Source: Planctomyces sp. (lineage in GTDB: Bacteria; Planctomycetota; Planctomycetia; Planctomycetales; Planctomycetaceae). From it: a stretch of DNA of 64,000 nucleotides. Position numbers and translations under genes: made by a program. Below the pieces are notes generated by a model. That model did not search any database and was not told the DNA's origin. It saw only the letters and a program-made list of their open reading frames with translations. The DNA lies in contig JAHBXW010000023.1 of the NCBI GenBank assembly GCA_019636235.1, positions 1 to 64,000 of the forward strand. Reading direction: 5' to 3'. How positions within the stretch are numbered: the first letter of the stretch is position 1; every line of letters begins with the position of its first letter. This document shows, one piece after another, positions 10,490 through 59,723 of the stretch.

Positions 10490-13400
10490 ATGCCCTGCGA
10501 CATTGCGTCGCCGTCGCGTGCTGCGCGGCGGACGACCCGGCTGTTGTGCGTATTGACCGGTGTGTGCGCGTTATGGCTGGCCGCGACCCCGCCATCAGGC
10601 GCTCAGGACGCTCCGCCGGCGCCCCCCGCCGCCGAGCCCGATTCCGACGCTGACGCCGCGGCGACCAGCGCGCCGCACGCGGAGGAGGAATCTCGGGCCG
10701 CGGAGGCCGATCCGGACGACATCCCGCGGCTGATCTATGTTCCGTTCCGCGACCTGGCCGCGACGCTCGGCGACCCGCAGTCGACGGTCATGGTCCCGCT
10801 GACCGAGTATCTGCAGCTCAAGCGGCGCGGGGCCGCGGCGGTCACCGAACTGCAGGGGGCCGTCATCACACGGGCTCAGTACCGGGCGGTCGTCGAGGGG
10901 GATGTCGCCTCGATCCGGGCGGAGCTGACCGTTCAGGTTCTCGGCCGGCCCTGGGTCGAGTTGCCGCTGAATTTCGGGGACGCCGCGATCGGCCGGATGC
11001 AGTCCGAATCGGACCAGGTGCTGCTCCGCGGGCAACCCGACGGCGGGACGGTCCTGTTGCTGGGCGCTCCCGGCGCGCATCAGATCTCGCTCGAGCTGGC
11101 GGCGCGGGTGCATACGCTGCCGGATGGCCGTCAATTGTCGCTGTCGGTCCCGCCCGTGGCCATCACGACGTTCGAGCTGCAGTTGCCGGACGCTGAGCAG
11201 ACCGTCGAGATTCAACCCCGGCAGGCGTCCGCGCTGCCGGCGGAGGCGCCCGGGGGCGGCGCGCTCGTGACGGCGAACGTCGGCGCGACGGCGGCGATCT
11301 CGGCGAAGTGGTATCCCCAGACCAGTCGGCGTCCCGCGATGGAGCTGCTGGCCAGCGCCGTCAACGAGCAGATCGTCAGCGCCGACGAGGGCCTGCTGCA
11401 TCGCGACGCCTGGATCCGGTTCGACGTGCTCCGCGGTCAGCTCGAGCAGTTGCGGATCGCGGTCCCGACAGGGCAGCGGGTGCTGGACGTCGCCGGGGAT
11501 GCGCGGATTCGCGGCTGGAAGGTCGCGGAGGAAGGCCTGCGGCAGGTCATTACGGTTGAGCTGTTGACGGCGGCGGAATCGGCGGTGAACGTCGAAGTGC
11601 ACACCGAGGGGCCCCTGCCCTCGGGTCCGTTTCCGGCCGCGGGGTTGAGCGCCGACGGCACGGCGCACGGCATCCATGCGCTGGATGTCATGCGCGAGAC
11701 CGGACAGGTCGCGATCCGGGCCGGCAGCGGCCTGGAAACGGCCGTGCTGGAGCAACAGGGGGTCAGCCGGGTGGACGCTGCGCAGGCCCCGGAGCGGCTG
11801 CGGCTGCCGGCGGCGACGATCTTTCAGTACTTCGCGCCGGCCTTCAGCCTGCAGGTCGAGGCGCGGACCCTGCAGCCGCGGCTGGTCGTCACCCACGACG
11901 CGCGGCTCGTGTTTCATGAAGAGGAGCTGCAACTCACGGCGTCGCTGAAGTACGTCATCGAGCGCGCCGGCGTGTTCGAGCTGCAGATCCGGCTGCCGGA
12001 GAATCTGTCTATCGACGACGTGCAGTGTCCGGCGATGAAGGAATTCCGGATCGACGACGCGGCGCGGCTGCTGATCATCACGCTGGCGGAGCGGACGCAG
12101 GGCCAGACCGAGGTCGCGATTCGCGCGCGGCGGGCGTTTTCGGCGGGGACGGACGCCGGCGAGCAGGTGCTGCCGCTGGTCGAACCGCTGGCCGTCGATC
12201 GTGAACTGGGGACGGTGCTGGTGTTCGCCAGCGAATCGGTGGATGTGGTGACGACCGAGACGGGCGTCGTCGGCGCCCAGCCCGTCGCGGCCGGCGCGCA
12301 GCGCGTGCGGGACGCCCGACTGACTTCGGCCTGGAGCTTCACCCGCCGCCCGGTGACGATCCCCGTCCGCACGATCCGCAAGCCGGCCCGACTGACGGCC
12401 GAACTCGCCACGACGATCATCGTGCAACCGCAGATCACGCATGTCGAAACGCGGATCGATTACCTGGTCGAATATGCCGGTCTGGCGACGTTCCGGCTGC
12501 TGGCGCCCGAGGCGATCTCCGGACAACTGCGGTTTGAAGCGGTCGATGACGGGCACTCGATTCGCCAGCAGACGGCCGGGCCGGCGGAGAACGGATGGGT
12601 CCCGTGGACGATCGTCATGCAGCGGGAGTCGCTGGGCCGCGTGCGGCTGAAAGCGGCCTATGACATCCGGTCGGCCGAGGCCGCCGCAGCAGACGCCGGC
12701 GAAGTCCGCGTGTCGCTGCTGCGTCCCGCCGGCGCGCGGGCCGTCGGCGACGTGGACGTGCCGTTGACGCAGGCCTCCGGGCAGGCGTCGATTCAACGGG
12801 ACGACTCGCTGAGCGTCACCGCCGCCGCGTCGGGCGGGGATGTGGAAGCCATCGATGTTCGGGAGCTGACGCTGCTGCCTCCCACGGGGGCGAGCGCATT
12901 CCGTTACTTCCGCCAGCCGGCCGAGGGAGGCATAGAGATCACTTTGACCCGGTCGCGGAATGACGTTCAGCCGGTGGTGGCGACCGTCGTCCGCCGCGCG
13001 CTGATCGAAGTCGTCGCGGGCGACCGCAGCGATTCCGCCGTGACTTACCGCTGCCGGTTTCGGATCAAGACCAGCGAGCGCCAGCGGCTGCTGCTGCACC
13101 TGCCGGTCAAGCTTGAACTGCTGGGGGCGTTCGTGAACCAGCGGGACGTGGGTCTGGAGCTGGCCGGTCTGCCGGCCGGGCAGAAACCCGGCGAGGCCTG
13201 GGATGCGTACTGGCTGAACGTCGCCCGCGACACCGGGGATGAAGAAGAGTTCGTGGTGTCGCTGCAGTTCCTGTGGCGGCTGAATCCGTCGCTGGGCGGA
13301 TCGGGTTATGGGCGAGGTTCGATCGAACTGCCACTGCCTGTCATTGGACCGGTGGAATCGCCGGCCGCCGTCCAGGAACAGCGCGTCGCCGTCTGGACGC

Positions 13401-13945
13401 CGCGCGAGTTCCTGCTGATCGGCGATCCCGAAGGCTTCCGTCGCATCGACGTGCCTGATCCGTGGTCGCGGCTGCTGAGCCGTCCCGCGCCGCGCGACGA
13501 TTCCGCGCTCGACCGCTGGTTCGGCGACGGGGCGATCGGCAGCCTGGGCAGCCTGCCCCGCGAGGGCCGCAACGCGTTCAATTACAGCAGCATCGGCGGC
13601 GCTTCGCTGCTCCGCGTCGACTGGTGGCGACGCACGTCGGCGACGCTGTTCGTCAGCGTGGCCATCGCCATCATCGGGCTCGTGCTGGTCCGGACGACTT
13701 GGGAGAACAAGCTCAGCATGCTGCTGATCGGCGCGCTGGCCCTGGCGGTGTATGCGATCCAGGACCTGTCATCGGCGGTGGAACTGGCCGCCGCCGGGCG
13801 GCTGGGACTGGCATTCCTGATTGCGTTGTGGGTCGTCCATGGCCTGCTCGGGCGTCGACGCGTCGAGGCCGCTGCGAAGCCGATTCCGCCCGCGCCGCCG
13901 TCGCCCCCCGCTCCCGCTGATGCGACTGTTCCGCCCTCGTCCTGA
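10490..13945 (+). CDS. Large secreted/membrane protein of unknown function, single-module form
   Basis: I do not recognise this 1151-residue protein by function. It has an Arg-rich N-terminus with a signal peptide (LLCVLTGVCALWLAATPPSGAQ), an acidic Ala/Pro linker, then ~950 residues of beta-rich sequence, and about three membrane segments near the C-terminus (TLFVSVAIAIIGLVLV, MLLIGALALAVYAI, GLAFLIALWVVHGLLG) followed by a Pro/Ala tail. It is therefore probably an extracytoplasmic protein anchored at its C-terminus. The ATG at 10490 follows a good GAGGAA site. It lies 59 bases before the giant gene downstream and shares the same order of sequence patterns with both halves of it, so I read them as paralogous modules. 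Confidence 0.8.
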   Translation: MPCDIASPSRAARRTTRLLCVLTGVCALWLAATPPSGAQDAPPAPPAAEPDSDADAAATSAPHAEEESRAAEADPDDIPRLIYVPFRDLAATLGDPQSTVMVPLTEYLQLKRRGAAAVTELQGAVITRAQYRAVVEGDVASIRAELTVQVLGRPWVELPLNFGDAAIGRMQSESDQVLLRGQPDGGTVLLLGAPGAHQISLELAARVHTLPDGRQLSLSVPPVAITTFELQLPDAEQTVEIQPRQASALPAEAPGGGALVTANVGATAAISAKWYPQTSRRPAMELLASAVNEQIVSADEGLLHRDAWIRFDVLRGQLEQLRIAVPTGQRVLDVAGDARIRGWKVAEEGLRQVITVELLTAAESAVNVEVHTEGPLPSGPFPAAGLSADGTAHGIHALDVMRETGQVAIRAGSGLETAVLEQQGVSRVDAAQAPERLRLPAATIFQYFAPAFSLQVEARTLQPRLVVTHDARLVFHEEELQLTASLKYVIERAGVFELQIRLPENLSIDDVQCPAMKEFRIDDAARLLIITLAERTQGQTEVAIRARRAFSAGTDAGEQVLPLVEPLAVDRELGTVLVFASESVDVVTTETGVVGAQPVAAGAQRVRDARLTSAWSFTRRPVTIPVRTIRKPARLTAELATTIIVQPQITHVETRIDYLVEYAGLATFRLLAPEAISGQLRFEAVDDGHSIRQQTAGPAENGWVPWTIVMQRESLGRVRLKAAYDIRSAEAAAADAGEVRVSLLRPAGARAVGDVDVPLTQASGQASIQRDDSLSVTAAASGGDVEAIDVRELTLLPPTGASAFRYFRQPAEGGIEITLTRSRNDVQPVVATVVRRALIEVVAGDRSDSAVTYRCRFRIKTSERQRLLLHLPVKLELLGAFVNQRDVGLELAGLPAGQKPGEAWDAYWLNVARDTGDEEEFVVSLQFLWRLNPSLGGSGYGRGSIELPLPVIGPVESPAAVQEQRVAVWTPREFLLIGDPEGFRRIDVPDPWSRLLSRPAPRDDSALDRWFGDGAIGSLGSLPREGRNAFNYSSIGGASLLRVDWWRRTSATLFVSVAIAIIGLVLVRTTWENKLSMLLIGALALAVYAIQDLSSAVELAAAGRLGLAFLIALWVVHGLLGRRRVEAAAKPIPPAPPSPPAPADATVPPSS

Positions 13946-14004
13946 CGATCCGCGCAGCGGCGGAACAACTGAGGACAGATCGCGGCGCGCAGCAGGAATC
14001 GGAC

Positions 14005-17000
14005 ATGATCACTATCGTCAGACACCTTTCGAAACGCCCCCACGGCCCGCGATCCGTCCTGTGGGTCGCGCTGGTCGGGCTGATCGCCCATGGCGCAGCA
14101 CGCGCGGCCGATCTCCGCGAACCGGTGATTCGCCGGCACATCCCGGCGACGGAGCTGCAGGCCGTCCTGGTCGGCGATCGCCCCGGCGCGCTGCTGCCGG
14201 CCGAGGAGTTCGAAACGCTGCTCGCGGCTGCGCGCGCCGCGGCGAATGCTTCGGTTCCTCCGGAACAGGGCATCCTGACCGCGGCGGATTATGTCGCGGA
14301 AATCGAGGGCGATCGGCTGCGACTCACGTGCCGGCTGTCGTTCCGCGCATTTCAGCGCGGCTGGACCACGATCAGCCTGCCAGCCTTGGGGGTCAGCGTC
14401 CTGTCCGCCAGAGTGCTGGAGACATCGCCCGACGCTGCGCCGCAGGCGGATGCGGAGACCGCAGGGCCTGCGCCGATCGCCCGGGATCCCGATAACCCTG
14501 ACCGGATTCTGGTTTTCCTGAACGAGCCGGGGCCCCTGCAGATCGAACTCACGCTCGCCACGCTGCTCCACGCCGTGGGCAGCGACCTCGCTGCCGGATT
14601 CCAACTGGCCGCCGCCCCGGAAGGCCAACTGCGGCTCAGCGTGCCGGCGGGACGGCGGCTGCAGGTGGACGGCGCGCTGCCGCCCCGGCCGGCCCCCGAT
14701 GACCAGCCCGCGGACTATGTGCTCGCCGTCGGCGGGCGCAACGACATCCAGCTGATGATCACCGACCGCCGGGAAGAGCGTCGCGAGGATGCCGCCACAT
14801 TCGCGCACACCGCGATCGGCGTCGTGGCGTCTCCCGGAGAAGCCTCCTGGACCGCGCGCACGCAGTTGTCGGTGTTCGGCCGCCCGCTCGATCAACTCGA
14901 GTGCGACGTGCCGGCAGGGCTGGAACTGACGTCGGTGGAGTCGATGGGGCTGGAGGCCTGGGAGCTGTCGGACGGCGGCAACGGCGCCACGCGATTGACT
15001 CTGACCTGGCGGCAGCCGTTCTCCGGCGTGCGGGCCATTTCACTGCGCGGCATTTTCTCGCGCTCCGCGGATGGCCGCTGGACCGTGCCGCCGCTGGTTG
15101 TGCAAAACGTGTCGTCGCACACGGGATTGCTGGTGCTGGAGCGTCCTCCCGGCGTGCGGTTGCAGGTGCTGGAAGCGACGGGGCTGCGCCAGACTTCGGC
15201 GGCCGAGGCACGGCTGCGTTCGGCGGCGGAGGACCCCACGGCGGCGGGGGACGACAGTTCCAGCCTGTACTTTCAGATCTGGACCGAGCGGTTCTCGCTG
15301 ACCTATCAGCCGGCCGAGCGGGAACGGGAAGTTCAAGCCGCGATGACCACGCTGTTGAGCGTCAACGCGCAGGGCGTCGATCTGCTGTCGATCGTGGAGT
15401 TTCAGACGCGGTTCGCGGCGATGTTCGAAGCGGACCTGGAGCTGCCGGCCGCGTGGCGGATCGACGGCGTGACGTCCGGCGGGCACGCGGTCGTGCAGTG
15501 GCAACTGATTCCCCGGGAGGCGGGACGCAACCGAGTTCGGATTCCCCTTGATCCGCCGCTGCTGCCCGGCGAGTCTCGCACGCTGACGCTGTCGGCGCAT
15601 TTTGATCCCGAGCCCTGGCCCGTGCAGGACGAACCGGTCCGGCTGGCGATCCCAGAGGTGCGGCTGCCTCAGGCGGGCGTCATCGAGGCGCTGTACGGCA
15701 TCGCCGCGGACGATGATCTCGACATCGCGCCGGTGGAAATCACCGGGCTCGATCCGGCCCGCCGCCGCGATCTGGAAACCTTGAACCGGCAACTCAGCCC
15801 GTTTCAGCGCACGGCCCGGCTGGGCTTCACCTACCAGGACACGGTGTTTCAGGGGCAACTCGAAGTCCGCCGGATGCCGGTCCGCCTGTCCGCCGTCACG
15901 GTGGCGTTGATGAGGCTGGAGCCCGAGACAGCGCTGACGCATGTCGAGGCCCAGTTGACGATCGGCGGAGGAGGGTTGCGGGAGTTCGTCGTGGCGCTGC
16001 CGGAATCGGCGGGTCGCGACATCCGGTTCACGCTCGCGCCGCATCGGCCGGCGCCGCTGTTCGGCACGGGCGGCGACGCCGCGCTGGCCGGCCGCATCGC
16101 CCAGCAGGCGGCCCAGATCGCGCCCGACCTGCCATTTATCCTGGAACAGCAACCGGGGACGGCCGTGAACGGCGTGCTCCCGTGGAACATTCGGCTCGAC
16201 CGGTATGCGCGCGGCACGTTCGTGCTGCAGGCCCGCATCGCTCAGCCGCGTCCGCCCGCCGAGGACGGCGCGCCGCAGACGTGGACCGTGCCCGCCATCA
16301 GCATTCCCGGCGCGGACCGCGAATCGGGAGCCGTCGGCGTGGAGGCCGCGGACGAGCAGCATCTGTCGTTCACGGCCGTCGATTCCGCCGGCCGGCCGCT
16401 GCCGGCGCTCGATCCGATCGACTTCCCGCCGGCGCATGTCCGCCCCGAAGAGCGGTTGGTCGGCGCCTGGAGTTTCGTGCGTCCGGGATGGAACGTGACC
16501 GTCTCCGAGGAGCGGCTGCCCCGCACGCCGATTCCCTCGGCGGTGATTGAGTCGCTGAATGTGGCCTCGCTGGTCGATTCCAGCGGCATCCGGCAGACGC
16601 AGCTCGATGCGCGGTTCAGCGCCGTCGGCATGCAGGCGTTCGACATCGCGCTGCCGGAAACCGACGAGTTGTGGTCCGCGCTGATCGATGACCGTCCGGT
16701 GGAGGTCCGCCGCGCGGACGGCGCGATTCGCATCCCGCTGTCGGCCGTCACACCCCCCGACCTGCGTCGCACGTTGCGACTGGTGACCGCGCCCGTTGCA
16801 GCGCGGGGCGCCGCGCCGCTGGAGCCACGGGGCGATTTGCAGATTCAACACCCGCTGCCCCGGTTCGCGGTCGTCACCGGTCAGGGAGCCGTCGAGCCGA
16901 TCGACATTCTGGAAACGAACTGGACATTGCACGCCCCCGACGACCTGGCGGTCGTCGATGCTCGCGGACGGTTCCGTCCCGTCGACTCAACCAAGGGCGA

Positions 17001-20000
17001 CAGCCTGATTCGCCGGTTGGCCCGGTTTGTGGAATCGCCGACGCTGCGAGATCCCCTGTCGAGGGTCCTGTTCCTGGCGGTCATTGTTGTGATCGGGGCG
17101 GCGGTGGGCTGGGCGCGTCGGCGGTCGACGCCGTTGTTTGCGGGTTGCCTGTGCGTGCTGGCGGCAGCGATGGTCGTCGGCGTGCTGCTGCAGGGACTGT
17201 CAGGGCCGCTGCAGCGCCTGCCGGGTTCGCGCGGCGGAGAATGGGTGACCGGGGGCAGAGACAAATTCTTCCTCGAAAGGGCGCGCAGCGAAGCGCCTGC
17301 GTCGGCGACTCCGCTGCCTGCGGCGTCTGAGCCGGCTTACGACTTCGCTGCGCACGCGCCGCTCGCTGCCGACGAGCGAAAGCTGAACGAAGCGATTCCC
17401 CAGTCCGAGATGAGCGACCTGGCCCTTCCGGCGCCTCCTGTCGCGTCGGGCGAAGGAGCCCCGAACTTGCCGGGGGCCGCGAGCGGGTCAGGACCAATGT
17501 TGGGGGCGGAAACCGCCGCAGGCGCGAGCATCGCCATCGCCCAGCCCTCACCGGCTCGACGTCCAGCCAGCGGAGCGCTCTTGTCCGTCGCGTTCGCGCT
17601 CGCCCCTCCTGAAGGCTCCGCGCCCAGCACGCTGCGAACGACATCGTCGGCTGTGGACTCGGAGACTCCGGGCCTGGATGTCACCCTCCGCAATCGACGT
17701 CAGGATCAGACCAGCCTGCTGCTGATCGCGGTGATCGTGGCGGCGTTCGGTTGGTGGCTGCGGGGGGCGTCGCCGCGCGTGCGGACGCTGTATGCCGTTG
17801 TGACGCTGCTCGGTCCGATCGCGGCGCGACATCTGATTTCCGGCGAATGGCTGCCGGCGGCCGACGGCGTCTGGTTGGGCGGTCTGCTGACAGTGGCGCT
17901 GTGGGCCCTGCGTTTCGCCGTTCGTCTGATCGCGGTCGGTGTGGAGCGTGTGCGGGCGCGGCGGTTGTCATCCGCCGTCGCGCGGACCGCCGCTGGCCTC
18001 GCCCTCGTGGGCGGCCTGTTGTGGGCGGGGTCGACGCCGGCAGAGGCCGACAATCCCGATCCGCTGACGGTGTACGTGCCCTACGGAGATCCGGCTTCGC
18101 CGCTGGCTGCGCGGAACGTGTTCGTGCCGCAGTCGGCATTCGAGCAGTTGTGGCAGGCTGCACATCCGGAGTCCGCGCCGCCTGCGGCAGCGCCCCGCGA
18201 CGGCGCCGTGGCGCTCGCCTCATACGTCGCCGATCTCCGGCAAATTGACGTCGCGTCCGATGTCCAGCGGTCTCCGGCGACCGTCCGCGTACAGGGGCGT
18301 CTTCTGCTCCACAACTTCCGCGAGTCGCCCATCCGCCTGCTCCTGCCGCTGCGCAGCGTGCCGCTGCGGTCGGCGACGCTGAACGGCGAGCCGGCCGTCG
18401 TCGAAGTGGACGCCGGCTCTGGAATGCTGGCGGTGGCTGTTCCCCGCAGCGGCGTCTCCGTCCTCGATCTGTCGTTCGACCAACCGGTGGAGACGACCGG
18501 TCCCGCGGGGCGGCTGGCCTGGCAGCATGGTCCGGTCGCCGCGGGGCAGCTTTCGTTGCGACTTCCGGAGGGCGCCCTGGAGACGCGGATCGACGGCGTG
18601 CGCATCGCGCCCCGACCGGCCGACGACGGAGGCGCTGTCCTCGAACTGGCTGTTGATCGCGGCGCGGCGGCCGTCGCCTGGCAACCGCGTTCCGCACAGG
18701 CCGCCGATCAGGCCGCGGTCGAACTGCAAGCGATCGCGGTCGTCGCCGTCAGCGACGCCAGCCTCGACGTCCGGTCGCAGTGCGCGCTCCGCGTGCGCCA
18801 GGGAACCGTCAGCGAGTTCGAGTTCAGCCTGCCGGCGAACGTGCGATTGAAACGCATCAGCGGGCCGGATCTGGCCGGCTGGCGGATCGATGACGAGGCG
18901 CAGGATCGGCGGCTGACGGTGTCCTTCCGCCGTCCGATCGACACGACGACGGAATTTTCGATTGAGGTCTTCCTGCCGCTGGAGATCGCAGACGCGGGCA
19001 GCGACTTCGAGCTGACGCTTCCCGCCCCCCGCGGCGTCGCCCGCGAGACGCTCCGGCTGGGCCTGTTCGCCGAACCGCATCTGGCGGTCCGGCCGGGCGA
19101 GCTGACGGGACTGGCCCGGGATGAGACGAGCAGTTTCCCGAACCCTCCGCCGGGCGGCTCCCCCTCGCCCACCAGCGCGCTGCAATTCGCATATCGCGCG
19201 ATTGAGAGCCCGGCCGTGCTCCGTGGCCGTGTGGAACGGCGGCTTCCCGAAACCCGAGCCGTCGCGCGGCATGGCGTGCTGGTGTCGCTCCGCAGGCAGC
19301 AGGTGTCCAGCCGCATCAGCTTCCAGATCGCCGGCGCGCCCCGCTCGACGCTGCAGGTGGCCCTGCCGGACGGCTTTCTGCTGGTGGATGCTGCCTCGCC
19401 CCACCTGCAGGACTACTCGGTTCTGCGCGAGCCCGGCCGCGGCGACATCCTGAACATCGACCTCCAGCAGCCGACGACCGGCGCCGTCGACGTACAGGTC
19501 GATGGCCTCATTCGCCGCGAGCCGCAGGAGCCGACCGCAAGCGTCGCCGTCCCCGCGCCGCTGCAGGTCGCGCGACTTGATTCGGAACTTGCGGTGTGGG
19601 TCGACGACACGTACACATCGACGATCGACAGCCAGGCCGACTGGCGGGCGGTCGACCCGGCCACGCTGTTCGAGGAGCTGCGGTCTCTGCGGCCCGGGCC
19701 GGTGCAGTTCGCATTCCGGACGACGGTTCTGGCGCCCCCCGCCGCGGTCATCGCCCTGCGGGAGCAAGCCGCGGAACTCGCGGCCGACGTGCTGACGCTG
19801 ATCGCTGTCGGCGACGCTGCGGTGGACTACGGGTTCACGTTTCAGTGGACGATCGCCCGCGCCGCGACCGATCGGCTGACGTTTACGACGCCGGCCTGGC
19901 TGCGCGGCCGCCTGGATTTCGCCGGCGACCAGGTGCGGCAGATCGTGTCGACCGACGGCCCGGATGATCGCATCCGCTGGACGATCCTGCTGACCGATCC

Positions 20001-21981
20001 CGTCCGCGACAAGTTCCTGCTGACGGCGGCCGCGTCGCTGCCTGCCCCGGTGGATGCCCGCGTCCCGGCGCCGGAGTTGCGGTTCGAGAAGCCCGGCGCC
20101 GATGGCGAACCCGTGCCGCTCGACGTTCAGAACCAGTACGTGATCGCGGTCAATCTGTCGCGCAGTCCGCTGGCCCTCGAAGACCCGTCGGCCGTGACAG
20201 CGATCGCCCGGGAGAACCTGCCGCTGCGGCTGCCCGACGCGCTCGTCCAGCAGGCGATGAGCATTGTCCGCGTGCTGCCCGATCGGGCCGCCGCCTGGAC
20301 GATCCAGCCCACTGGCACGACCGCCTCGGTGCAGGCGATGGTGATGGCTTCCCGGCTGCAGACGATCGTCGACTGGGACGGTTCCTGGCGGACGCGCGTG
20401 GCCTACACCGTTCGCAATCGCGGCCGGCAGTATCTGCCCGTCGAACTGCCGAGCGCCGATGTCCGGCTGCTGTCGGTGCTGGTTCAGAGCCGGCCCTCCC
20501 GGTCGGTGTCGACCGTCATCGGCAACCGCCGCGTGCAGCTCGTGCCGCTGCCTCCCAGCAGCGAGGCCGACCTGTCGTACGACGTCGTGCTGCATCTGGC
20601 TGGCAAGCTGGCGTCGCCGCTGCCCGATCGGCCGTCGCTGGCGGCGGAGTCGCTGCCGCTGCCCGCGCCGCGGATCGTCACGACGGCCGAATCCGCCGAG
20701 TACGGGATGCCGGTGGCCCAGACATCGTGGATGGTGACGCTGCCGGACGGCGTCGAGGCGTCCGTCGACGACCTTTCCAATCTGACGCCCCACCAGTCGG
20801 ACGAATGGGGTCTGATGCTGGTGTCGCAGTCGCTGGACCAGTTCGAAGCGGAGATCGCGGAGATGTCCCGCATCGCGGCCGATGCGCGGAACTCGACGTC
20901 GCGCCGGATCCAAGCGCAGTCGAACCTCAAAAAGTTGTCGCTGATGTTGGAGAGCTATGAACCGGCGACGTCCTCGGCGACATACGGTCGGGAGATTGCC
21001 GGGAAGGCGGGCGAGTTGCAGGCGGACAACACCCGCCGCTATCGGGAGTTGTCCGCACAGGTGAAGAAGGAGCTGAGCGATTCCTCCGAACTGGACGGCG
21101 CGGCGCCGACTGTCGAGTTTGACGCGGAGGGCCTGGACCTCTCATTCCGGCAGGGGTCATTCCAGGCCAACGGGGGCGACGCCGTGTGGGGGGAACCGGG
21201 ACAGGGACAGGCCTTTGTCGTGGGGAACGCCGGCGAGATCCTGAGATTCAACCGGAACGACCTGCAGCCAGCCGATACTCTGAGCGACGGCGAACGGACC
21301 TTCGGCTTCCGCCTGTTTTCATCAGCGGTCGGCGACAAAACCCGCGTCCAGTCGCAGGTCGAACTCGAATCGCGGCGGAGCCGGTCGGGGCTGAAAGATT
21401 CCCTCAGCCGGCAGGACGCGGGGCTGGGAGGAGGCCGAGGCGGCTTTGTCCAGGGAGGGGCGGGGTTGGACAATGATCGTCTCGGGCGAATCCAACTCGA
21501 TCGGTTTGGCGCCAGCCGGCGGAATCTCGAATTGGCGACGGAAGAGGGCGAATCGCAGCAGCGCGGAATGCAGATCGACACGCTTGAGAGCCTGGCGGCA
21601 TTGCCGGCGCCCGCGCAGGGTTGGCAGGAAATCGGCGGCCTGTCGCTGCCGATCGAGCTGCCGGCGTTGCAGGGGCGGGAGCTGGGATTCTCGAAGTCCG
21701 GGGGTGATCCGCGGCTGGTGCTCAGGGCGCGATCCGCCGAGGCACGCACCATCGCCTGGAGTTCCGGGGAGGCGCTGCTCTGGCTGGCCGTGGGCCTGAT
21801 GCTCGTCGCCGCCGCGGGACAGCCCCGGTTCAGCGCGCTGATCGGGACGCTGGCTGCGATCGGCGCCGGAGCGGGATTCCTGCTGGCGCCCGGCGACCTG
21901 CGGTGGGCGTTCCTGGCGGTGTTCGCGGTCGCCGCGCTGTCGATGCTGCTCCGCCGGCCGATTCCGCGGACGGCTCCTTAA
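14005..21981 (+). CDS. Giant two-module membrane protein of unknown function
   Basis: A 2658-residue protein with no recognisable enzyme motif. The N-terminal signal is VLWVALVGLIAHGAARA. Module 1 (about 20-1010) is beta-rich and ends in two membrane segments near 1017-1065. A low-complexity Ala/Pro linker follows, then further membrane segments near 1236-1330. The last of these, AAGLALVGGLLWAGSTPAEA, looks like a signal peptide that is now internal. Module 2 (~1350-2580) begins LTVYVPYGDP, includes a helical coiled-coil-like stretch near 2270-2360 and a Gly/Arg-rich patch near 2480, and the protein ends with about three membrane segments. The ATG at 14005 has AGGAA upstream. It is probably co-transcribed with the gene before it. 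The frame is intact across all 8 kb, which argues against an annotation artefact. Confidence 0.82.
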   Translation: MITIVRHLSKRPHGPRSVLWVALVGLIAHGAARAADLREPVIRRHIPATELQAVLVGDRPGALLPAEEFETLLAAARAAANASVPPEQGILTAADYVAEIEGDRLRLTCRLSFRAFQRGWTTISLPALGVSVLSARVLETSPDAAPQADAETAGPAPIARDPDNPDRILVFLNEPGPLQIELTLATLLHAVGSDLAAGFQLAAAPEGQLRLSVPAGRRLQVDGALPPRPAPDDQPADYVLAVGGRNDIQLMITDRREERREDAATFAHTAIGVVASPGEASWTARTQLSVFGRPLDQLECDVPAGLELTSVESMGLEAWELSDGGNGATRLTLTWRQPFSGVRAISLRGIFSRSADGRWTVPPLVVQNVSSHTGLLVLERPPGVRLQVLEATGLRQTSAAEARLRSAAEDPTAAGDDSSSLYFQIWTERFSLTYQPAEREREVQAAMTTLLSVNAQGVDLLSIVEFQTRFAAMFEADLELPAAWRIDGVTSGGHAVVQWQLIPREAGRNRVRIPLDPPLLPGESRTLTLSAHFDPEPWPVQDEPVRLAIPEVRLPQAGVIEALYGIAADDDLDIAPVEITGLDPARRRDLETLNRQLSPFQRTARLGFTYQDTVFQGQLEVRRMPVRLSAVTVALMRLEPETALTHVEAQLTIGGGGLREFVVALPESAGRDIRFTLAPHRPAPLFGTGGDAALAGRIAQQAAQIAPDLPFILEQQPGTAVNGVLPWNIRLDRYARGTFVLQARIAQPRPPAEDGAPQTWTVPAISIPGADRESGAVGVEAADEQHLSFTAVDSAGRPLPALDPIDFPPAHVRPEERLVGAWSFVRPGWNVTVSEERLPRTPIPSAVIESLNVASLVDSSGIRQTQLDARFSAVGMQAFDIALPETDELWSALIDDRPVEVRRADGAIRIPLSAVTPPDLRRTLRLVTAPVAARGAAPLEPRGDLQIQHPLPRFAVVTGQGAVEPIDILETNWTLHAPDDLAVVDARGRFRPVDSTKGDSLIRRLARFVESPTLRDPLSRVLFLAVIVVIGAAVGWARRRSTPLFAGCLCVLAAAMVVGVLLQGLSGPLQRLPGSRGGEWVTGGRDKFFLERARSEAPASATPLPAASEPAYDFAAHAPLAADERKLNEAIPQSEMSDLALPAPPVASGEGAPNLPGAASGSGPMLGAETAAGASIAIAQPSPARRPASGALLSVAFALAPPEGSAPSTLRTTSSAVDSETPGLDVTLRNRRQDQTSLLLIAVIVAAFGWWLRGASPRVRTLYAVVTLLGPIAARHLISGEWLPAADGVWLGGLLTVALWALRFAVRLIAVGVERVRARRLSSAVARTAAGLALVGGLLWAGSTPAEADNPDPLTVYVPYGDPASPLAARNVFVPQSAFEQLWQAAHPESAPPAAAPRDGAVALASYVADLRQIDVASDVQRSPATVRVQGRLLLHNFRESPIRLLLPLRSVPLRSATLNGEPAVVEVDAGSGMLAVAVPRSGVSVLDLSFDQPVETTGPAGRLAWQHGPVAAGQLSLRLPEGALETRIDGVRIAPRPADDGGAVLELAVDRGAAAVAWQPRSAQAADQAAVELQAIAVVAVSDASLDVRSQCALRVRQGTVSEFEFSLPANVRLKRISGPDLAGWRIDDEAQDRRLTVSFRRPIDTTTEFSIEVFLPLEIADAGSDFELTLPAPRGVARETLRLGLFAEPHLAVRPGELTGLARDETSSFPNPPPGGSPSPTSALQFAYRAIESPAVLRGRVERRLPETRAVARHGVLVSLRRQQVSSRISFQIAGAPRSTLQVALPDGFLLVDAASPHLQDYSVLREPGRGDILNIDLQQPTTGAVDVQVDGLIRREPQEPTASVAVPAPLQVARLDSELAVWVDDTYTSTIDSQADWRAVDPATLFEELRSLRPGPVQFAFRTTVLAPPAAVIALREQAAELAADVLTLIAVGDAAVDYGFTFQWTIARAATDRLTFTTPAWLRGRLDFAGDQVRQIVSTDGPDDRIRWTILLTDPVRDKFLLTAAASLPAPVDARVPAPELRFEKPGADGEPVPLDVQNQYVIAVNLSRSPLALEDPSAVTAIARENLPLRLPDALVQQAMSIVRVLPDRAAAWTIQPTGTTASVQAMVMASRLQTIVDWDGSWRTRVAYTVRNRGRQYLPVELPSADVRLLSVLVQSRPSRSVSTVIGNRRVQLVPLPPSSEADLSYDVVLHLAGKLASPLPDRPSLAAESLPLPAPRIVTTAESAEYGMPVAQTSWMVTLPDGVEASVDDLSNLTPHQSDEWGLMLVSQSLDQFEAEIAEMSRIAADARNSTSRRIQAQSNLKKLSLMLESYEPATSSATYGREIAGKAGELQADNTRRYRELSAQVKKELSDSSELDGAAPTVEFDAEGLDLSFRQGSFQANGGDAVWGEPGQGQAFVVGNAGEILRFNRNDLQPADTLSDGERTFGFRLFSSAVGDKTRVQSQVELESRRSRSGLKDSLSRQDAGLGGGRGGFVQGGAGLDNDRLGRIQLDRFGASRRNLELATEEGESQQRGMQIDTLESLAALPAPAQGWQEIGGLSLPIELPALQGRELGFSKSGGDPRLVLRARSAEARTIAWSSGEALLWLAVGLMLVAAAGQPRFSALIGTLAAIGAGAGFLLAPGDLRWAFLAVFAVAALSMLLRRPIPRTAP

Positions 21982-52916: not shown

Positions 52917-55900
52917 TCACTTGATCAGCTTCCGGTAGATGATGAACTTCCGGAAGTCGAAGTATCCCGGAATGTTGTCTGTTGGATCGGGGTCCGTATA
53001 GGCCTCTTCGATGCGCGTCATGTCGCAGACCATGAAGGCCCGCCGCAGCGGGATGTCCTCGGCCAGACCGCCGACCTGGACCTCGCCCGAGGCGGTCAAC
53101 CGATGCGCCTCGAAGAACCCGACCGTCGTCCACACCATGAACACATGGCTGCGGTTCGTCGTCCGGTTGTGAATCTTCGCCAGCAGCCGGTTGCGGGTGT
53201 GGAAGTCGACGCTGTTGGCCGTCAGGTCGCCTTCGCTCCGGGCCTCGAACAATCCGAAGTTGCTCGTATTGGCATCATCCAGCGGACGGAGCGCACGCAA
53301 CAACGTATCGTCCAGGCTGGTGTCGCGCACCAGATCGTCCGAGTGCGTGCGGACATGGTTCAGCCCGCGGAATGGCTTGGAATGGACGCCCCCCGGGATC
53401 CGGACTTGAGGACTGGCGGTCAATAGCGGATCGACGCCGTCGCGCCGGGCCAGAAGGTTCGTGGCCACGACGTCATTGAACCAGCTGCGCGAATCATACC
53501 GGTCGACGACGGTCGGATAGCCCGTGCCCGGATCGACGGTCGCCAGCTGATCCGGATCGTCGACCAGCCCCTTCAGAACCGTCTCGTCGCGGATCGTGTT
53601 CAGATTGAGCCTGCCCGGAGTCCGACGTTGCCACTGCAACCGGTCCTCGACCGCCACTTCCGTCCGGTCCTGAACCGTCAGAAACTCCAGCAGGCGGTGC
53701 CAGCGGTTTCGATAATGCGCCGGAATGTCCGGAGCCAGCGAGTCATACGGCTCGCGGATCAGCGTGTCGTAAGGATTCAAAAACCGCACGGCGGCCGTGT
53801 ACTGGCCATTCATCACTCCCCCTACAGTGACCAGGCCGGATGTCGCACCGCCGATTCGGAACCGGTTCGTGCCGAACGGCGTCAGCGTGTCCGGATCGAC
53901 GGCCGTATTCCCCTGATGGCCATACAGGGGCAGCGACAGCAGCTCCATCACCGAGGAGTAATCGCGATTGAACACGGGTTCCCAGAAGTTGAACCGCGCG
54001 GTCGTCAGCGAATCGTTCGCCGCATGCAGATCGGCTTCGTTCAAGCCCCGCAGCGAATGATGCCGAATTCCAGTTCCTCCCGGATGAACCTGTTGCCGGA
54101 TCGGCGAGAACGGCTCCGGGCGCTCGAAACTGGCGATTGGCCGCGGCGGCACGCCGGTGCCGACCTCGAAGGCTTCGCGAACCGCCGCCTGGGTGTCTCC
54201 GGACGGCTGGAAGTCGACGACGTCCGTGTCTGTGATCCGGATCCGGTCCGTCTCGATCCACAGCTCCGCGCCGCCGGAAAGCTGCTCGCCATGACCGAAT
54301 GAGAACAGGTTCCGCCGACGCTGCAGGACGAGGTCGAAGTTCTTCACGGTCGAATCCCGACCGACAAGCGCCGCGCCCCCGGTCGCCGGATCGTTGGCCA
54401 GATAAGGAATCGTGACTTCATAAAACCCGTTGTGGCCAGGCCACGTCAGGTCGACGCGCGCCTGCGGATCGGGCACTGGGTCGGCGCTCGACGCGACCGT
54501 GCTGTTCGAGATCGGCACGACGGTTTCCAGTTCGGCCCCGTTCTCGACGTCCGCATAGAAGTCGGCCGGCATCAGTTGTCCGTTGGCATTTACGGAGCCA
54601 TCGTGACAACTGATCAGCAGGTTCTCGCCCGGATCAATGGCGATGGAGTTCATCCCGGATGATCGAAACTCGACCGCCGCCTCGACGTTCACATCCCCCG
54701 GTCCGACCGGCATGTCCATGGGAACACGGACCAGCCGCCAGCGGTTGTCTCCCAGGCTCAACGGAAAGGGCGTGGCATTCCGCAGTTCGACATACAGGAA
54801 CTGGTGTGCGGAATCGTCGTCCCGATGCATCGTCCGGTTCAGGTCGGCGGACTGGATCGGCTGATTGATCAGCATGACTTCGCTGAACGTCAACAGTTGC
54901 GATTCAACGCCATACGCGACGCGATCCGGATTGTTCCAGCCGTCGCTGAGATCGGCGTCGTATTCAAACCGCGTGATGCTCACGTCCCGGTCAAGCGCAT
55001 CCACGAAATTGACGGCGAACTGGGCCATCTCGCGGACCTGGTCGTCCGTGTAAATCCCCGGAACCTTTGCGTAATCCGAACCGTCCTGGCCGCCTCCCAG
55101 CGTCCACAACAGCACGTAAATGTCCCGGGCCATCCGCTGCCGGTCATACCGCGCCCACCATTCCTGAGCGGCGCGCCCGGCGGGGGTGCCAGGATTGATG
55201 TCGCCGAATGCGGGGCCGTTCGTGGGGTTGGCCTCATAATCCGTCAATTGCGTGTGATCCACGTCCGGGACCGACACGCCCGTGTCTCCCTGCTCGAACA
55301 CCGGATGCGGCGTCAGCGGCCGATAGACCGGGTTGCCGCTCGGATCGAAATTCACCAACAGCTGATTGATGTTCAATCGGTGCTGGACGCGTTTCAGGAG
55401 GGCGTTGAAGTTGGGGGCATCATTGAACCCGCCGCTGCGAATCCGCGTCCACAGCAGCCGCCGCAATTCGTGCCGGAAAGGATCCTCATCCCCACCGACC
55501 ACAGCCGCACCGAACATGGGCGGAAAATGAACGTCGCCCGCCGAATATGGGATGCCCATCAGGTCAGTTGCGCCTGTCCATTCGTTGAACTCCCACGCCC
55601 GCGGCGCGGCCGGATTTGGATAGGCGTGACTCACCTCCAGCCGGTCCCACGAGTCGGTCGTGAACCGCCGCCGGATGAGATCGGAATTCCCCGCGTCCCG
55701 AAATGCGAACGGCAGCAACTCCCGCAGCCGGGAATGCTCGCCTGTCAGACTGAAATCGGCGTTGGAGAGCTGCAGCCCCGCCATTTCCGCGGGCCGGAAG
55801 GGCATGTCGGCCACGTTGGGAAACCAGGAAGTCGCCGTGAATTCGCTGTCCTCGTCCACCAGATGGTTCTCGCCAATCGGCGCCTGCATGTCCAGAACGG

Positions 55901-57752
55901 GAGACATGGAGTAGGGCGCGATCAGATAATCCGTGACCTCGGAATTCACTTCCGGGTCATGCCAGAAGCCACGGTAAATCGGCCACGCGCTGGGATTCAA
56001 ATTCGGCAGCGGATCCGGCCCCAATCGCCGCACGGCTCCCATCCCGGGCGCTTCATCGCCCCCCACCAGATACCCGCTCCCGGGAAAAAGATTTCCCGTC
56101 GCGCCGTAGTCCAGCGGATGCACCATCGGAGGCACCGGCAGTCCGCCCAGCTTGGGCTCGAAATACGCATTTGACCCGCGCCCCAGGAACGACCCGTCGT
56201 CGTCGAGCCCCGTCGTTCCGGCCCGGGGATAGGCCGTGGACAATCCGTCCAGATAATCCGCCATCAGTCCCGGCTCGCCGTACCGCCCAGGCTGAATCGA
56301 GCCGCCGTCTCCCGGTCGACGTCCCATCAGCAGAAACAAAAGTTCCATGTTCGCGGCCTGCAGCGACGTCGTCGCTTCCCCCCCCCAGTTCGTGACAAAC
56401 GACTTCTGCGTCGCCAGCGCCGGAGCTTCGGCAGTTGCGGTCGTGGGATCGGCATCGCCAATCAACGCCCAGACAGGGTTGACCTCCGAGGGGCTCAGCC
56501 CCTGATTGGACTTCGACAGCGACTCTCCCAGCACCGCGCTCGAGAGCGTCTCGCCGATCGCCAGGCCGCGGTGGTTTCCATGCACATTGACATTCAGCAA
56601 TCCATCCGCGTCGAGAATCTTCACCGCCACCAGCGGGACGACCTGGCGGCCGTCCGGCAGATCGATCATGGGCAGACCGAGATCCATCCAGATCGCGTCC
56701 GGGACGCCATCGCCGTCGGTGTCGACGTCCAGCTCATAAAGGTCGTCCATGCGGCCGCTGAGGACGCCCAGATCGTTGGCGACGCCATCGCCGTCGCGGT
56801 CGATGACAAATCGGAACGGGGGCAGGATCCGGTTTGTGTTGCCGCTTTGAGCCGGCGTCGCCACTCGCAAGAACCGATAGTTCGCATCGCGCAGCGTGCG
56901 CACGCCGGTTGGATCTTCAGGCCCAGGCGGACCCGCGACAAATGTCGACGTTCGATGCAGGTAATGCGGCCGCAGCGATCGAGCGGCCGTATTGCTGATG
57001 GTCGTCGGCCCGATGTTCGTGAAATACTCGGTGAATCCCTCCGGGTGAGTGCTCCTCCAATTCACTTCCAGCTGCGGCCGAAAAAACGACGGAATAGTGA
57101 CCCGACGTCCCCCGACCTGAGCATCATAAGCGAGGAACAAACTGTTGATGTCGGGATAGGTGATTCCAGCATTGGGACGATAGTTCGCGATATACGGGTA
57201 CAATCCCATCGCGTCGATCGGATTGGGCTCAGTGTCCGGCCGGGCAGCCGGGCTGAAATTCAGCACCAGCGGGTTCGCGTTGTCGTCGAGAATCGCATCC
57301 GGCACGCCGTCGCCGTCGAAGTCAAAGTAGATATCATCGCCTGGAACATACACTCCGTCACTGTCGGGGTCGTCAAACGTCACCGTAATCCCCATCCCCG
57401 AATACAGCGCATCGTCCAGCGGCTGCAGGTTGGCGTTGATCGGCCCCACGATGTGCGACAGGATCGAATGCCGCCCGCCCCATAGGGCACTCGGCCCATA
57501 GGCGTCCCGCGTACCGACCAGCAGCTGTTCGTAGGCCTGGTCCAGCACCTCCTCGATCCGGACTTCGTAGTCCTCGGTCGACGCATAGCCCCGCGCGGCC
57601 ATCTGCTCCTGGTTCGTCCACTGGTAAAAGAAGAACCCCAGGAACGCCAGCGTCGCCAGCAGCGTCAGCGTGATGATGATCACCGCCCCGCCCGACCGTG
57701 GATGCGGCCGTAGCGCAGCGGGAGGCGTATTGAGTTTACGGGTGCGGAACAT
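52917..57752 (-). CDS. Giant GspK-like minor pseudopilin
   Basis: A 1611-residue protein at the K position of a pseudopilin operon. The N-terminus RSGGAVIIITLTLLATLAFLG is a pilin-like membrane helix. Like GspK of type II secretion it has no Glu at +5. The body has the K-family phrase ILDADGLLNVNVHGN and several calcium-loop-like repeats (DFDGDGVPDAI, DRDGDGVANDL, DTDGDGVPDAI). It is about five times the length of ordinary GspK, with the excess in large inserts after the helix. GspK caps the pseudopilus tip, so the inserts would be exposed there. 57752 is the ATG; gspJ ends 114 bases upstream. Confidence 0.78.
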   Translation of the reverse strand: MFRTRKLNTPPAALRPHPRSGGAVIIITLTLLATLAFLGFFFYQWTNQEQMAARGYASTEDYEVRIEEVLDQAYEQLLVGTRDAYGPSALWGGRHSILSHIVGPINANLQPLDDALYSGMGITVTFDDPDSDGVYVPGDDIYFDFDGDGVPDAILDDNANPLVLNFSPAARPDTEPNPIDAMGLYPYIANYRPNAGITYPDINSLFLAYDAQVGGRRVTIPSFFRPQLEVNWRSTHPEGFTEYFTNIGPTTISNTAARSLRPHYLHRTSTFVAGPPGPEDPTGVRTLRDANYRFLRVATPAQSGNTNRILPPFRFVIDRDGDGVANDLGVLSGRMDDLYELDVDTDGDGVPDAIWMDLGLPMIDLPDGRQVVPLVAVKILDADGLLNVNVHGNHRGLAIGETLSSAVLGESLSKSNQGLSPSEVNPVWALIGDADPTTATAEAPALATQKSFVTNWGGEATTSLQAANMELLFLLMGRRPGDGGSIQPGRYGEPGLMADYLDGLSTAYPRAGTTGLDDDGSFLGRGSNAYFEPKLGGLPVPPMVHPLDYGATGNLFPGSGYLVGGDEAPGMGAVRRLGPDPLPNLNPSAWPIYRGFWHDPEVNSEVTDYLIAPYSMSPVLDMQAPIGENHLVDEDSEFTATSWFPNVADMPFRPAEMAGLQLSNADFSLTGEHSRLRELLPFAFRDAGNSDLIRRRFTTDSWDRLEVSHAYPNPAAPRAWEFNEWTGATDLMGIPYSAGDVHFPPMFGAAVVGGDEDPFRHELRRLLWTRIRSGGFNDAPNFNALLKRVQHRLNINQLLVNFDPSGNPVYRPLTPHPVFEQGDTGVSVPDVDHTQLTDYEANPTNGPAFGDINPGTPAGRAAQEWWARYDRQRMARDIYVLLWTLGGGQDGSDYAKVPGIYTDDQVREMAQFAVNFVDALDRDVSITRFEYDADLSDGWNNPDRVAYGVESQLLTFSEVMLINQPIQSADLNRTMHRDDDSAHQFLYVELRNATPFPLSLGDNRWRLVRVPMDMPVGPGDVNVEAAVEFRSSGMNSIAIDPGENLLISCHDGSVNANGQLMPADFYADVENGAELETVVPISNSTVASSADPVPDPQARVDLTWPGHNGFYEVTIPYLANDPATGGAALVGRDSTVKNFDLVLQRRRNLFSFGHGEQLSGGAELWIETDRIRITDTDVVDFQPSGDTQAAVREAFEVGTGVPPRPIASFERPEPFSPIRQQVHPGGTGIRHHSLRGLNEADLHAANDSLTTARFNFWEPVFNRDYSSVMELLSLPLYGHQGNTAVDPDTLTPFGTNRFRIGGATSGLVTVGGVMNGQYTAAVRFLNPYDTLIREPYDSLAPDIPAHYRNRWHRLLEFLTVQDRTEVAVEDRLQWQRRTPGRLNLNTIRDETVLKGLVDDPDQLATVDPGTGYPTVVDRYDSRSWFNDVVATNLLARRDGVDPLLTASPQVRIPGGVHSKPFRGLNHVRTHSDDLVRDTSLDDTLLRALRPLDDANTSNFGLFEARSEGDLTANSVDFHTRNRLLAKIHNRTTNRSHVFMVWTTVGFFEAHRLTASGEVQVGGLAEDIPLRRAFMVCDMTRIEEAYTDPDPTDNIPGYFDFRKFIIYRKLIK

Positions 57753-57866: not shown

Positions 57867-59723
57867 TCACTCCACGAAGGAATGCACGATCGTCATCTGC
57901 CGGGGAAGGTTGGCGCCGGGATCGCGATACCGGATCGTGATGCGGATCATCTGCAGGCCGATGCGGTTGTCGAAACACTTCCAGATCACGCCGCCGTCGA
58001 CCAGCGTCTGCCCCGGCTCGCGCGGCCACTCCGGCTGGCGAAAGCCGGTGGCGTGCGTGCTCGGATCCGCCGGATTGAGGAAGCCGATGACAGCGTAGTA
58101 AAAGGTCGGGTCTGCCGGATCCAGAATTCCATTGCCATTGCGATCGTCGTCCCCATCGTCGATGCCGTTCAGGTTGATGTCTTCGACGCCGGGAAAAAAT
58201 AGTTGGCCGATCGGCACGCCGGCCAGCGGCGCCCAGTGTGCGGATGTCGGCAGCGGGCCTGTTCCAGGATCAAAAACCACCGGAACCCGCAGCGGCGCGA
58301 ACGGCGGATGGAACAAGCCGTCCATGTCCGCCACGCCGGAGGCCGCCAGCGGATGCCACGTGTCGAAGCAGCGGTTATCCGGAACGCCCAGCGCCCCGTA
58401 TCCAGTGTTCTGCCGGCCGTGCGTCGGATTCCGGACTCCGGCAATCGCCCGGAAGTAGCCCAAATCCGTCTCGTGTCCCAATTCCACCCACTGCGGCGGA
58501 AGCAGGTCGCGCACGCCATTGCCGTTCACATCTTCAAATCCATCCAGCACGCCATTGCCATTGAGGTCCGGCTCCGAAAACCCATCGTCCCACACGTCGA
58601 TCTCAAACGCCTCGACGCCGGACAGGATCAGGTCCTCCCCGGAACGCGGGCCGTCCACAAAGGAATCGAGAGCGGCCGCGGGAGGCACATGCGACGCGCC
58701 CGGGTAGGCGAATCCGGGATTGGACGTTTCCTCGTGCGTGTAGCGGCCAATGAACCCATACGGCGCCGCAAACTCGATCGGCTGCCCGCTGTCGGGAAAA
58801 TGTCCGAATCGGTGCTGCGGCACGGCGATTGGAAACGGCGTCGCCCCGATCGTGTTCTGCAGCGAATCGACGCCGTTGAACATCAGCCAGAATGTTTCTG
58901 GCGTGCCGTCGCCGTCCTCATCCCGGGCCCAGTTCCAGGTCGAGTAGTCGAAGTCGTTCCAGAAACTCCGCAGAGGCGCCGGCGTGGTGTAAGGCCCCAC
59001 GAACAGGCGGTCATTGATGGTGTCTGGCGGAATCAGTTCCGCGCCGGTCGGACCGATGCCCGGCTGCGCGGAGAACCGAGACGGCGAAACCGGAGCCGTC
59101 GGTGTGGGAGGCTCCCGCAGCAGCAGCTGCCGACGATAAAGGTTTCCGTCTCGGACGAAATAGGCCACCTCCGCCGCAGGCGATTCTCCGATGCCGTTCC
59201 CGAACAAGCCGTCGTCGTATTCCGGCTGGTTCAGATCGGCCGCCCCGCCGACGATGGCCGCGCGACCCCGGAGGATGCCGGGCGTCGGGTCCCGGTCATT
59301 CACCCGCAGGTCGATCGTCCAGTGCAGGACGTTGTCCGACGGGTCGTGATGATTATTCTCAGAGAAGTACAGGAACCCCCGCTGGCGGGCCGCGTCGATC
59401 GGCCCGGTCGGCGTCAGCGGCACGAGCCCATAGACCCCCTTGACGCGCGGCTGACGAAACGTCGCCTTCGCCAGGTCGCTGCGCAGCTGCGTATCGACCG
59501 CCCGGGCCTTCTGATCGTTCTGCGCCTGGGCCTGCTGGTTCCGCATCGACCCCACGGCCGTCCCGAAGATCTGTGCGAACAGCATCAGCATCAGCAGGAC
59601 GAGCGCCGTGGCGACCAGCATTTCCACGAGCGTGAATCCGCGCGGCGGCCGGGGAATGAACCGGCCGGCGTCAGCGGGACGGCGGATGGCGTGAGGTCGA
59701 TGGCGTCTCATGCGGGGCCTCAC
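57867..59723 (-). CDS. GspJ-like minor pseudopilin, oversized
   Basis: A 618-residue prepilin. The cleavage site RGFTLVEMLVATALVL has Gly29 at -1 and Glu34 at +5, followed by a long hydrophobic helix. The mature part is much longer than usual GspJ (~200 residues) and contains Asn/Asp-Gly loops (DLNGNGVLDGFEDVNGNGVR; DINLNGIDDGDDDRNGNGI) typical of calcium binding. The ATG overlaps the stop of the preceding gspI-like gene by four bases (ATGA). A prepilin peptidase encoded elsewhere must process it. Confidence 0.82.
   Translation of the reverse strand: MRPRMRRHRPHAIRRPADAGRFIPRPPRGFTLVEMLVATALVLLMLMLFAQIFGTAVGSMRNQQAQAQNDQKARAVDTQLRSDLAKATFRQPRVKGVYGLVPLTPTGPIDAARQRGFLYFSENNHHDPSDNVLHWTIDLRVNDRDPTPGILRGRAAIVGGAADLNQPEYDDGLFGNGIGESPAAEVAYFVRDGNLYRRQLLLREPPTPTAPVSPSRFSAQPGIGPTGAELIPPDTINDRLFVGPYTTPAPLRSFWNDFDYSTWNWARDEDGDGTPETFWLMFNGVDSLQNTIGATPFPIAVPQHRFGHFPDSGQPIEFAAPYGFIGRYTHEETSNPGFAYPGASHVPPAAALDSFVDGPRSGEDLILSGVEAFEIDVWDDGFSEPDLNGNGVLDGFEDVNGNGVRDLLPPQWVELGHETDLGYFRAIAGVRNPTHGRQNTGYGALGVPDNRCFDTWHPLAASGVADMDGLFHPPFAPLRVPVVFDPGTGPLPTSAHWAPLAGVPIGQLFFPGVEDINLNGIDDGDDDRNGNGILDPADPTFYYAVIGFLNPADPSTHATGFRQPEWPREPGQTLVDGGVIWKCFDNRIGLQMIRITIRYRDPGANLPRQMTIVHSFVE

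Follow-up and report, generated by a model that had tools for sequence, protein, structure and literature searches.

Genes A and BC, which lie side by side in the 64,000-nucleotide stretch of Planctomyces sp. DNA analysed here (the window), belong to a family that looks like an unstudied three-part cell-envelope complex of Planctomycetota. Both genes are on the same strand and free of internal stops, with a ribosome-binding-like sequence 5′ of each start (in gene A, GAGGAA just 5′ of the ATG at 10490). They encode three large modules, A, B and C, whose limits at about 10.71-13.61, 14.12-17.03 and 18.05-20.80 kb agree with the segments, in two adjacent same-strand genes, that an earlier note on this DNA had pointed out. 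The features of the locus are:

10490-13945, plus strand: gene A, an open frame of 1151 aa with a signal peptide, a beta-repeat ectodomain and three C-terminal hydrophobic helices
10490-10603, plus strand: putative signal peptide of A, a hydrophobic segment at residues 18-36 after RRTTR, read by eye
10712-13609, plus strand: ectodomain of module A, predicted all-beta (ortholog alignment A1; AF2 mean pLDDT 82.5)
11507-12007, plus strand: internal repeat of module A, about residues 340-506, which matches the stretch after it in a profile comparison (95.8% probability, E 7.7e-9)
12035-12520, plus strand: the repeat after that one in module A, about residues 516-677 (partner in the same 95.8% profile match)
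13628-13840, plus strand: C-terminal hydrophobic helices of A, then RRRVE (hydropathy; model of A)
14005-21981, plus strand: gene BC, an open frame of 2658 aa with two complete modules in an in-frame fusion, co-linear with A in relatives
14005-14109, plus strand: putative signal peptide of B, about residues 1-35, with a hydrophobic segment at 17-35 that ends in AARAA
14116-17034, plus strand: ectodomain of module B (ortholog alignment A2; hhalign with A and C)
17038-17214, plus strand: hydrophobic helices 1-2 of B (hydropathy)
17704-17946, plus strand: later hydrophobic helices of B, ahead of the internal signal-peptide-like segment (hydropathy)
17947-18048, plus strand: internal signal-peptide-like segment, RARRLSSAVARTAAGLALVGGLLWAGSTPAEA/D, ahead of module C (sequence; recurrence in orthologs)
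18049-20799, plus strand: ectodomain of module C (ortholog alignment A3; AF2 mean pLDDT 83.9, 996 residues)
20893-20970, plus strand: DUF1559-like helical motif in C, STSRRIQAQSNLKKLSLMLESYEPAT (Pfam DUF1559 matches in C orthologs)
21748-21954, plus strand: C-terminal hydrophobic helices of C, then RRP (hydropathy)

Searches of Pfam and NCBIfam give no match for A or BC at E up to 1, PDB sequence searches returned chance-level matches only, with none meaningful for A, and no description of the A/BC family was found in the literature searched. Another open frame in the window, 1611 aa long at 52920-57752 on the minus strand, is also without a Pfam match.

Compared as single sequences by blastp, the modules resemble each other weakly (A-C, 25% over 511 aa; A-B, 24% over 489 aa). 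Profiles built from 23 orthologs each align near-globally and in register in all three hhalign pairings, with E=1e-47 over 855 columns for A-B, E=2e-50 over 859 columns for A-C and E=9e-45 over 848 columns for B-C; in a control of 327 comparisons, in which 220-residue profile windows were set against reversed profiles, the maximum was a score of 24 at 4.8% probability. Judged from these alignments, homology among A, B and C extends over most of each module, and the near-global pairings bear out the earlier description of three diverged copies of one beta-rich module. The same profiles indicate a feature absent from that description, namely that every module is a tandem array of beta repeats of about 180 aa. 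Windows out of register match one another, the best pair being A_441-660 and C_221-440 (98.4% probability, E 6e-15), and matches are also found within module A (A_221-440 vs A_441-660, 95.8% probability, E 7.7e-9) and within module C (C_221-440 vs C_441-660, 97.4% probability, E 9.2e-12). In this profile-window comparison the repeat offsets group near 170-180 residues, from which about four repeats per module are estimated.

Signal-peptide and transmembrane assignments rest on hydropathy and the sequences, and give one topology throughout: a signal peptide, then the ectodomain, then C-terminal hydrophobic helices with positive ends. The C-terminal membrane segments described earlier are thus present in all three sets, and in A they appear in the predicted model as well. 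The signal peptide of A is probably cleaved at A38/Q39, as an A/Q-type site recurs among the orthologs. At RARRLSSAVARTAAGLALVGGLLWAGSTPAEA/D within BC, a hydrophobic stretch and an A-type cleavage site likewise recur in most orthologs; the earlier note did not mention this internal segment. BC has the appearance of an in-frame fusion of two precursors, not of one two-domain protein. Among 40 distant loci, two (L235 and L246) encode B and C in separate genes, and in L235 the stand-alone C gene opens with a signal peptide of its own. The conserved signal-peptide-like segment before C and these two separated cases together indicate that the unit is three subunits. Of the cell-surface or envelope location suggested in the earlier note, the envelope is plausible, whereas the topology points away from the cell surface and to the inner membrane and periplasm.

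Within the family of the window's genome (61 genomes), A matches 55 and BC matches 52, where very strong matches are read as type I genes, the version carried by the window, and weak ones as paralogs. Of 294 genomes sampled from the phylum, 90 match profile A1. When 84,980 species were scanned with a pattern, 105 relatives came up, and the 80 of these that were listed have planctomycete titles or are untitled MAGs. The earlier suggestion that the system may be specific to the phylum fits these searches, which placed relatives across Planctomycetota, but the pattern scan reaches close relatives only, so that absence elsewhere is unproven. One 97% complete, single-contig genome (G007) has neither an A1 nor an A4 match (A4 being the type II profile described below) and another (G426) has no A4 match, so the system is dispensable at least there, which counts against the reading as an envelope complex proposed below.

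The order of the genes and the identity of the subunits are kept over these distances. A and BC run co-linearly in the 22 type I loci that supplied the profiles, and 40 loci from other families and classes (L215-L254) usually have a gene of about 1150 aa followed by one of about 2400 aa; L243 has the two-module gene alone. In 17 loci outside the profile set, the own-letter profile was the best match for 48 of 51 modules, the exceptions being sL092_B, L216_C and L239_B. In a quick FastTree analysis the type I A, B and C modules cluster by letter across classes, except L239_B (support 0.99, 0.93 and 0.83), and type II A′, B′ and C′ form three further groups. Because letter identity is kept across classes in both profiles and tree, the triplication is older than the classes sampled.

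The AlphaFold models of A (1077 aa, pLDDT 82.5, pTM 0.42) and C (996 aa, pLDDT 83.9, pTM 0.42) are all-beta, with long hairpins in similar order. The search for differing folds proposed in the earlier note, run for A and C, thus returned the opposite: two all-beta structures whose elements follow a similar order and whose top fold matches coincide. The structure models cover A and C, and the membership of module B in the family rests on its profile match. In Foldseek searches against PDB, Ost1/ribophorin I ranks first for both (E 1.3e-9 for A and 4.6e-10 for C), followed mainly by integrin alpha chains. Ribophorin I/Ost1 is a non-catalytic oligosaccharyltransferase subunit of eukaryotes and of TACK and Asgard archaea (PMC7226087, PMC11417166), a membrane-anchored luminal beta protein (PMC7226087) with two similar luminal beta domains, one TM helix and a ribosome-binding cytosolic domain (PMC7226087, PMC11417166). 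What it may have in common with the models of A and C is a putatively non-catalytic ectodomain of tandem beta domains on the trans side of a membrane; A, B and C differ from it in having about four repeats per module, three paralogous subunits and several C-terminal helices. Whole-chain TM-scores to Ost1 are low (0.12-0.31 for models A and C), and we therefore regard the likeness as a local fold resemblance that is no evidence of common descent. Sequence searches detected no relation to Ost1: with an E limit of 1, Pfam scans of the window proteins, of 23 A orthologs and of 23 C orthologs gave no Ribophorin_I match, and the PDB profile search gave no Ost1 chain even with E allowed to reach 10. 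The neighbour clusters listed include no STT3-type oligosaccharyltransferase.

By analogy with Ost1, the arrays might be accessories of secretion or modification that hold exported polypeptides near a translocon, a glycosyltransferase or a pilus machine. The top PDB rank of Ost1/ribophorin I for both A and C, the non-catalytic, membrane-anchored and luminal character of Ost1 itself (PMC7226087), the DUF1559-like motif in C and the Tad pilus genes that about six genomes of the family have close to the type II locus are all in keeping with such a role; the low global TM-scores and the lack of a Ribophorin_I match in the searches above speak against it, as do the Tad genes, which do not recur in 40 wider loci, and we consider it distinctly unlikely. 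The Tad linkage was accordingly treated as local synteny.

Integrin alpha chains, the recurrent second match, are likewise membrane-anchored rods of tandem beta-sandwiches, but their TM-scores are low (0.09-0.18) and beta-sandwich chains readily match each other. Tandem beta-sandwich arrays are common in adhesins, and surface attachment is widespread among planctomycetes. A role as an adhesin or as a surface rod in attachment or in contact between cells would suit this build and lifestyle; the topology, however, is of inner-membrane type with no outer-membrane anchor seen, and a strict three-subunit order across classes would be unusual for adhesins, which makes this explanation very unlikely. 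A further local resemblance, between about 200 residues of module A and the N-terminal beta domain of the M1 aminopeptidase LTA4 hydrolase (about 200 columns, Foldseek probability 1.00), is not accompanied by the HExxH zinc site, which is absent from the window proteins and from all type I orthologs checked. The hypothesis of an enzyme was rejected on this ground and because the invariant residues are mostly Gly, Pro, Trp, Arg and Glu.

Since no catalytic constellation is obvious among the invariant residues of A and BC orthologs and HExxH is missing, and since the closest fold matches of models A and C, Ost1/ribophorin I and integrin alpha, are ectodomains without catalytic function, we infer from topology, conservation and operon context that the system is a periplasmic scaffold, heteromeric and non-enzymatic, which is held in the inner membrane and in some lineages is perhaps monitored by a VWA anti-sigma factor. 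To this reading we give slightly less than an even chance. A, B and C would be ancient, non-interchangeable subunits of one heteromeric Planctomycetota envelope complex, each exported by its own signal peptide, with signal-peptidase cleavage inside BC probably releasing C from B. Each subunit would stay in the inner membrane through its C-terminal helices, and its roughly four beta-sandwich repeats would extend as a rod into the periplasm, where the complex would hold or brace envelope components. In some lineages a YfbK-type VWA protein (partly zinc-finger anti-sigma-like) would read the state of the complex and probably control an ECF sigma factor. A bolder version, in which an ancient three-subunit periplasmic array complex of Ost1-like build supports the planctomycete envelope and some lineages report its state through VWA anti-sigma factors, is doubtful but conceivable; if true, it would provide a bacterial system comparable in build to the non-catalytic luminal scaffolds of the eukaryotic ER. 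The novelty lies at the level of the family and the putative system, beta-sandwich rods as such being already known.

Gene neighbourhoods bear on the proposed sigma control. The genes next to the type I pair show no conservation, and the ADH, TPI and SecG neighbours in the window do not recur; gene context is therefore little of a functional anchor within the family. In seven loci (L084, L239, L240, L243, L248, L251 and L254), the gene directly upstream matches a VWA profile, which was built from six of the seven and recovered L251 with 658 bits. In the four that were scanned (L084, L239, L243 and L248), YfbK_C and VWA are confirmed by Pfam, which also gives sigma-70 regions in the gene upstream of the VWA gene in L239, and zf-HC2 in L248. 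Of the linked VWA proteins, those of L240, L243 and L248 show an HxxxCxxC zinc-finger motif, which those of L239, L254 and L084 lack. Six of the loci (L239, L240, L243, L248, L254 and L084) have an ECF sigma gene followed by a gene for a large membrane-type protein with a YfbK-like VWA end; the VWA-ended open frame of L239 is 1903 aa long.

These loci could also mean that the ectodomains of A, B and C sense envelope stress and relay it to an anti-sigma factor, with any scaffold role secondary. The ECF sigma and VWA genes stand directly upstream of, and overlap or abut, A or the two-module gene in the seven loci, the VWA protein is zinc-finger anti-sigma-like in L240, L243 and L248, and coordinates suggest the same sigma/VWA arrangement in three more genomes (G077, G137 and G171). 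Most type I and type II loci, however, have no adjoining sigma or VWA genes, and the window's genome has no YfbK_C gene. Sigma control therefore cannot be general, and we hold a primarily signalling device to be unlikely. For the scaffold reading, monitoring by a VWA protein would be confined to some lineages. A VWA gene directly ahead of beta-rich membrane genes also recalls the Bat operon and MoxR-VWA systems, but here the VWA is of YfbK type, follows an ECF sigma gene and occurs in a subset of loci only; Pfam gave no BatD-type match for the window proteins or for the A and C orthologs with E as high as 1, and no MoxR or DUF58 gene is among the recurrent neighbours listed.

Module C has one further mark of its own. 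Pfam finds DUF1559 in 6 of 23 C orthologs (best E 3.4e-6) but not in the window's own C, and in a second scan 2 of 7 C orthologs were matched, over 22-32 profile positions. What C has in common with the DUF1559 pseudopilin-like proteins of planctomycetes is a helix motif of about 30 residues (NLKQL/NLKQI), in which N2307 is at least 95% identical; unlike those proteins, it has no full-length domain, with only about 30 of 268 profile positions matching where checked, and within the A/B/C family the motif was found only in type I C. The strict motif pattern occurs in 26 of 76 large type I open frames as against 0 of 62 large open frames from type II or wider-class loci, and a background of 1.28 million residues, DUF1559 proteins included, gave 7 matches. 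Elsewhere in the window, two proteins encoded on the minus strand (57870-59723 and 61216-62394) have an N-terminal methylation motif of pilin type (E about 5e-5).

The planctomycete envelope is unusual. A transposon study of Planctopirus limnophila gives 108 essential phylum-restricted proteins of unknown function (PMC10632474). To this problem, a conserved three-subunit unit together with a paralogous second version offers a concrete, testable object. The second version, type II, was missed by the earlier note and is present in the window's own genome (C45:167569-170748, locus L184). Within the class, the type II profile A4 finds matches in 156 of 199 genomes, in some cases only with E values of 1e-6 to 1e-15, and it also picks up type I A weakly. 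In 25 loci (from L081-L098 and L215-L234; 13 in the family and 12 of 20 class loci), a gene of the inositol-monophosphatase family, PF00459 in the one member checked, immediately precedes A′ and shares its strand. In the window's own genome, the type II A′/B′C′ locus occupies 7429-16880 of L184 (C45, about 167.4-176.9 kb), and a UppP-like gene lies just downstream in convergent orientation (16910-17803, minus strand).
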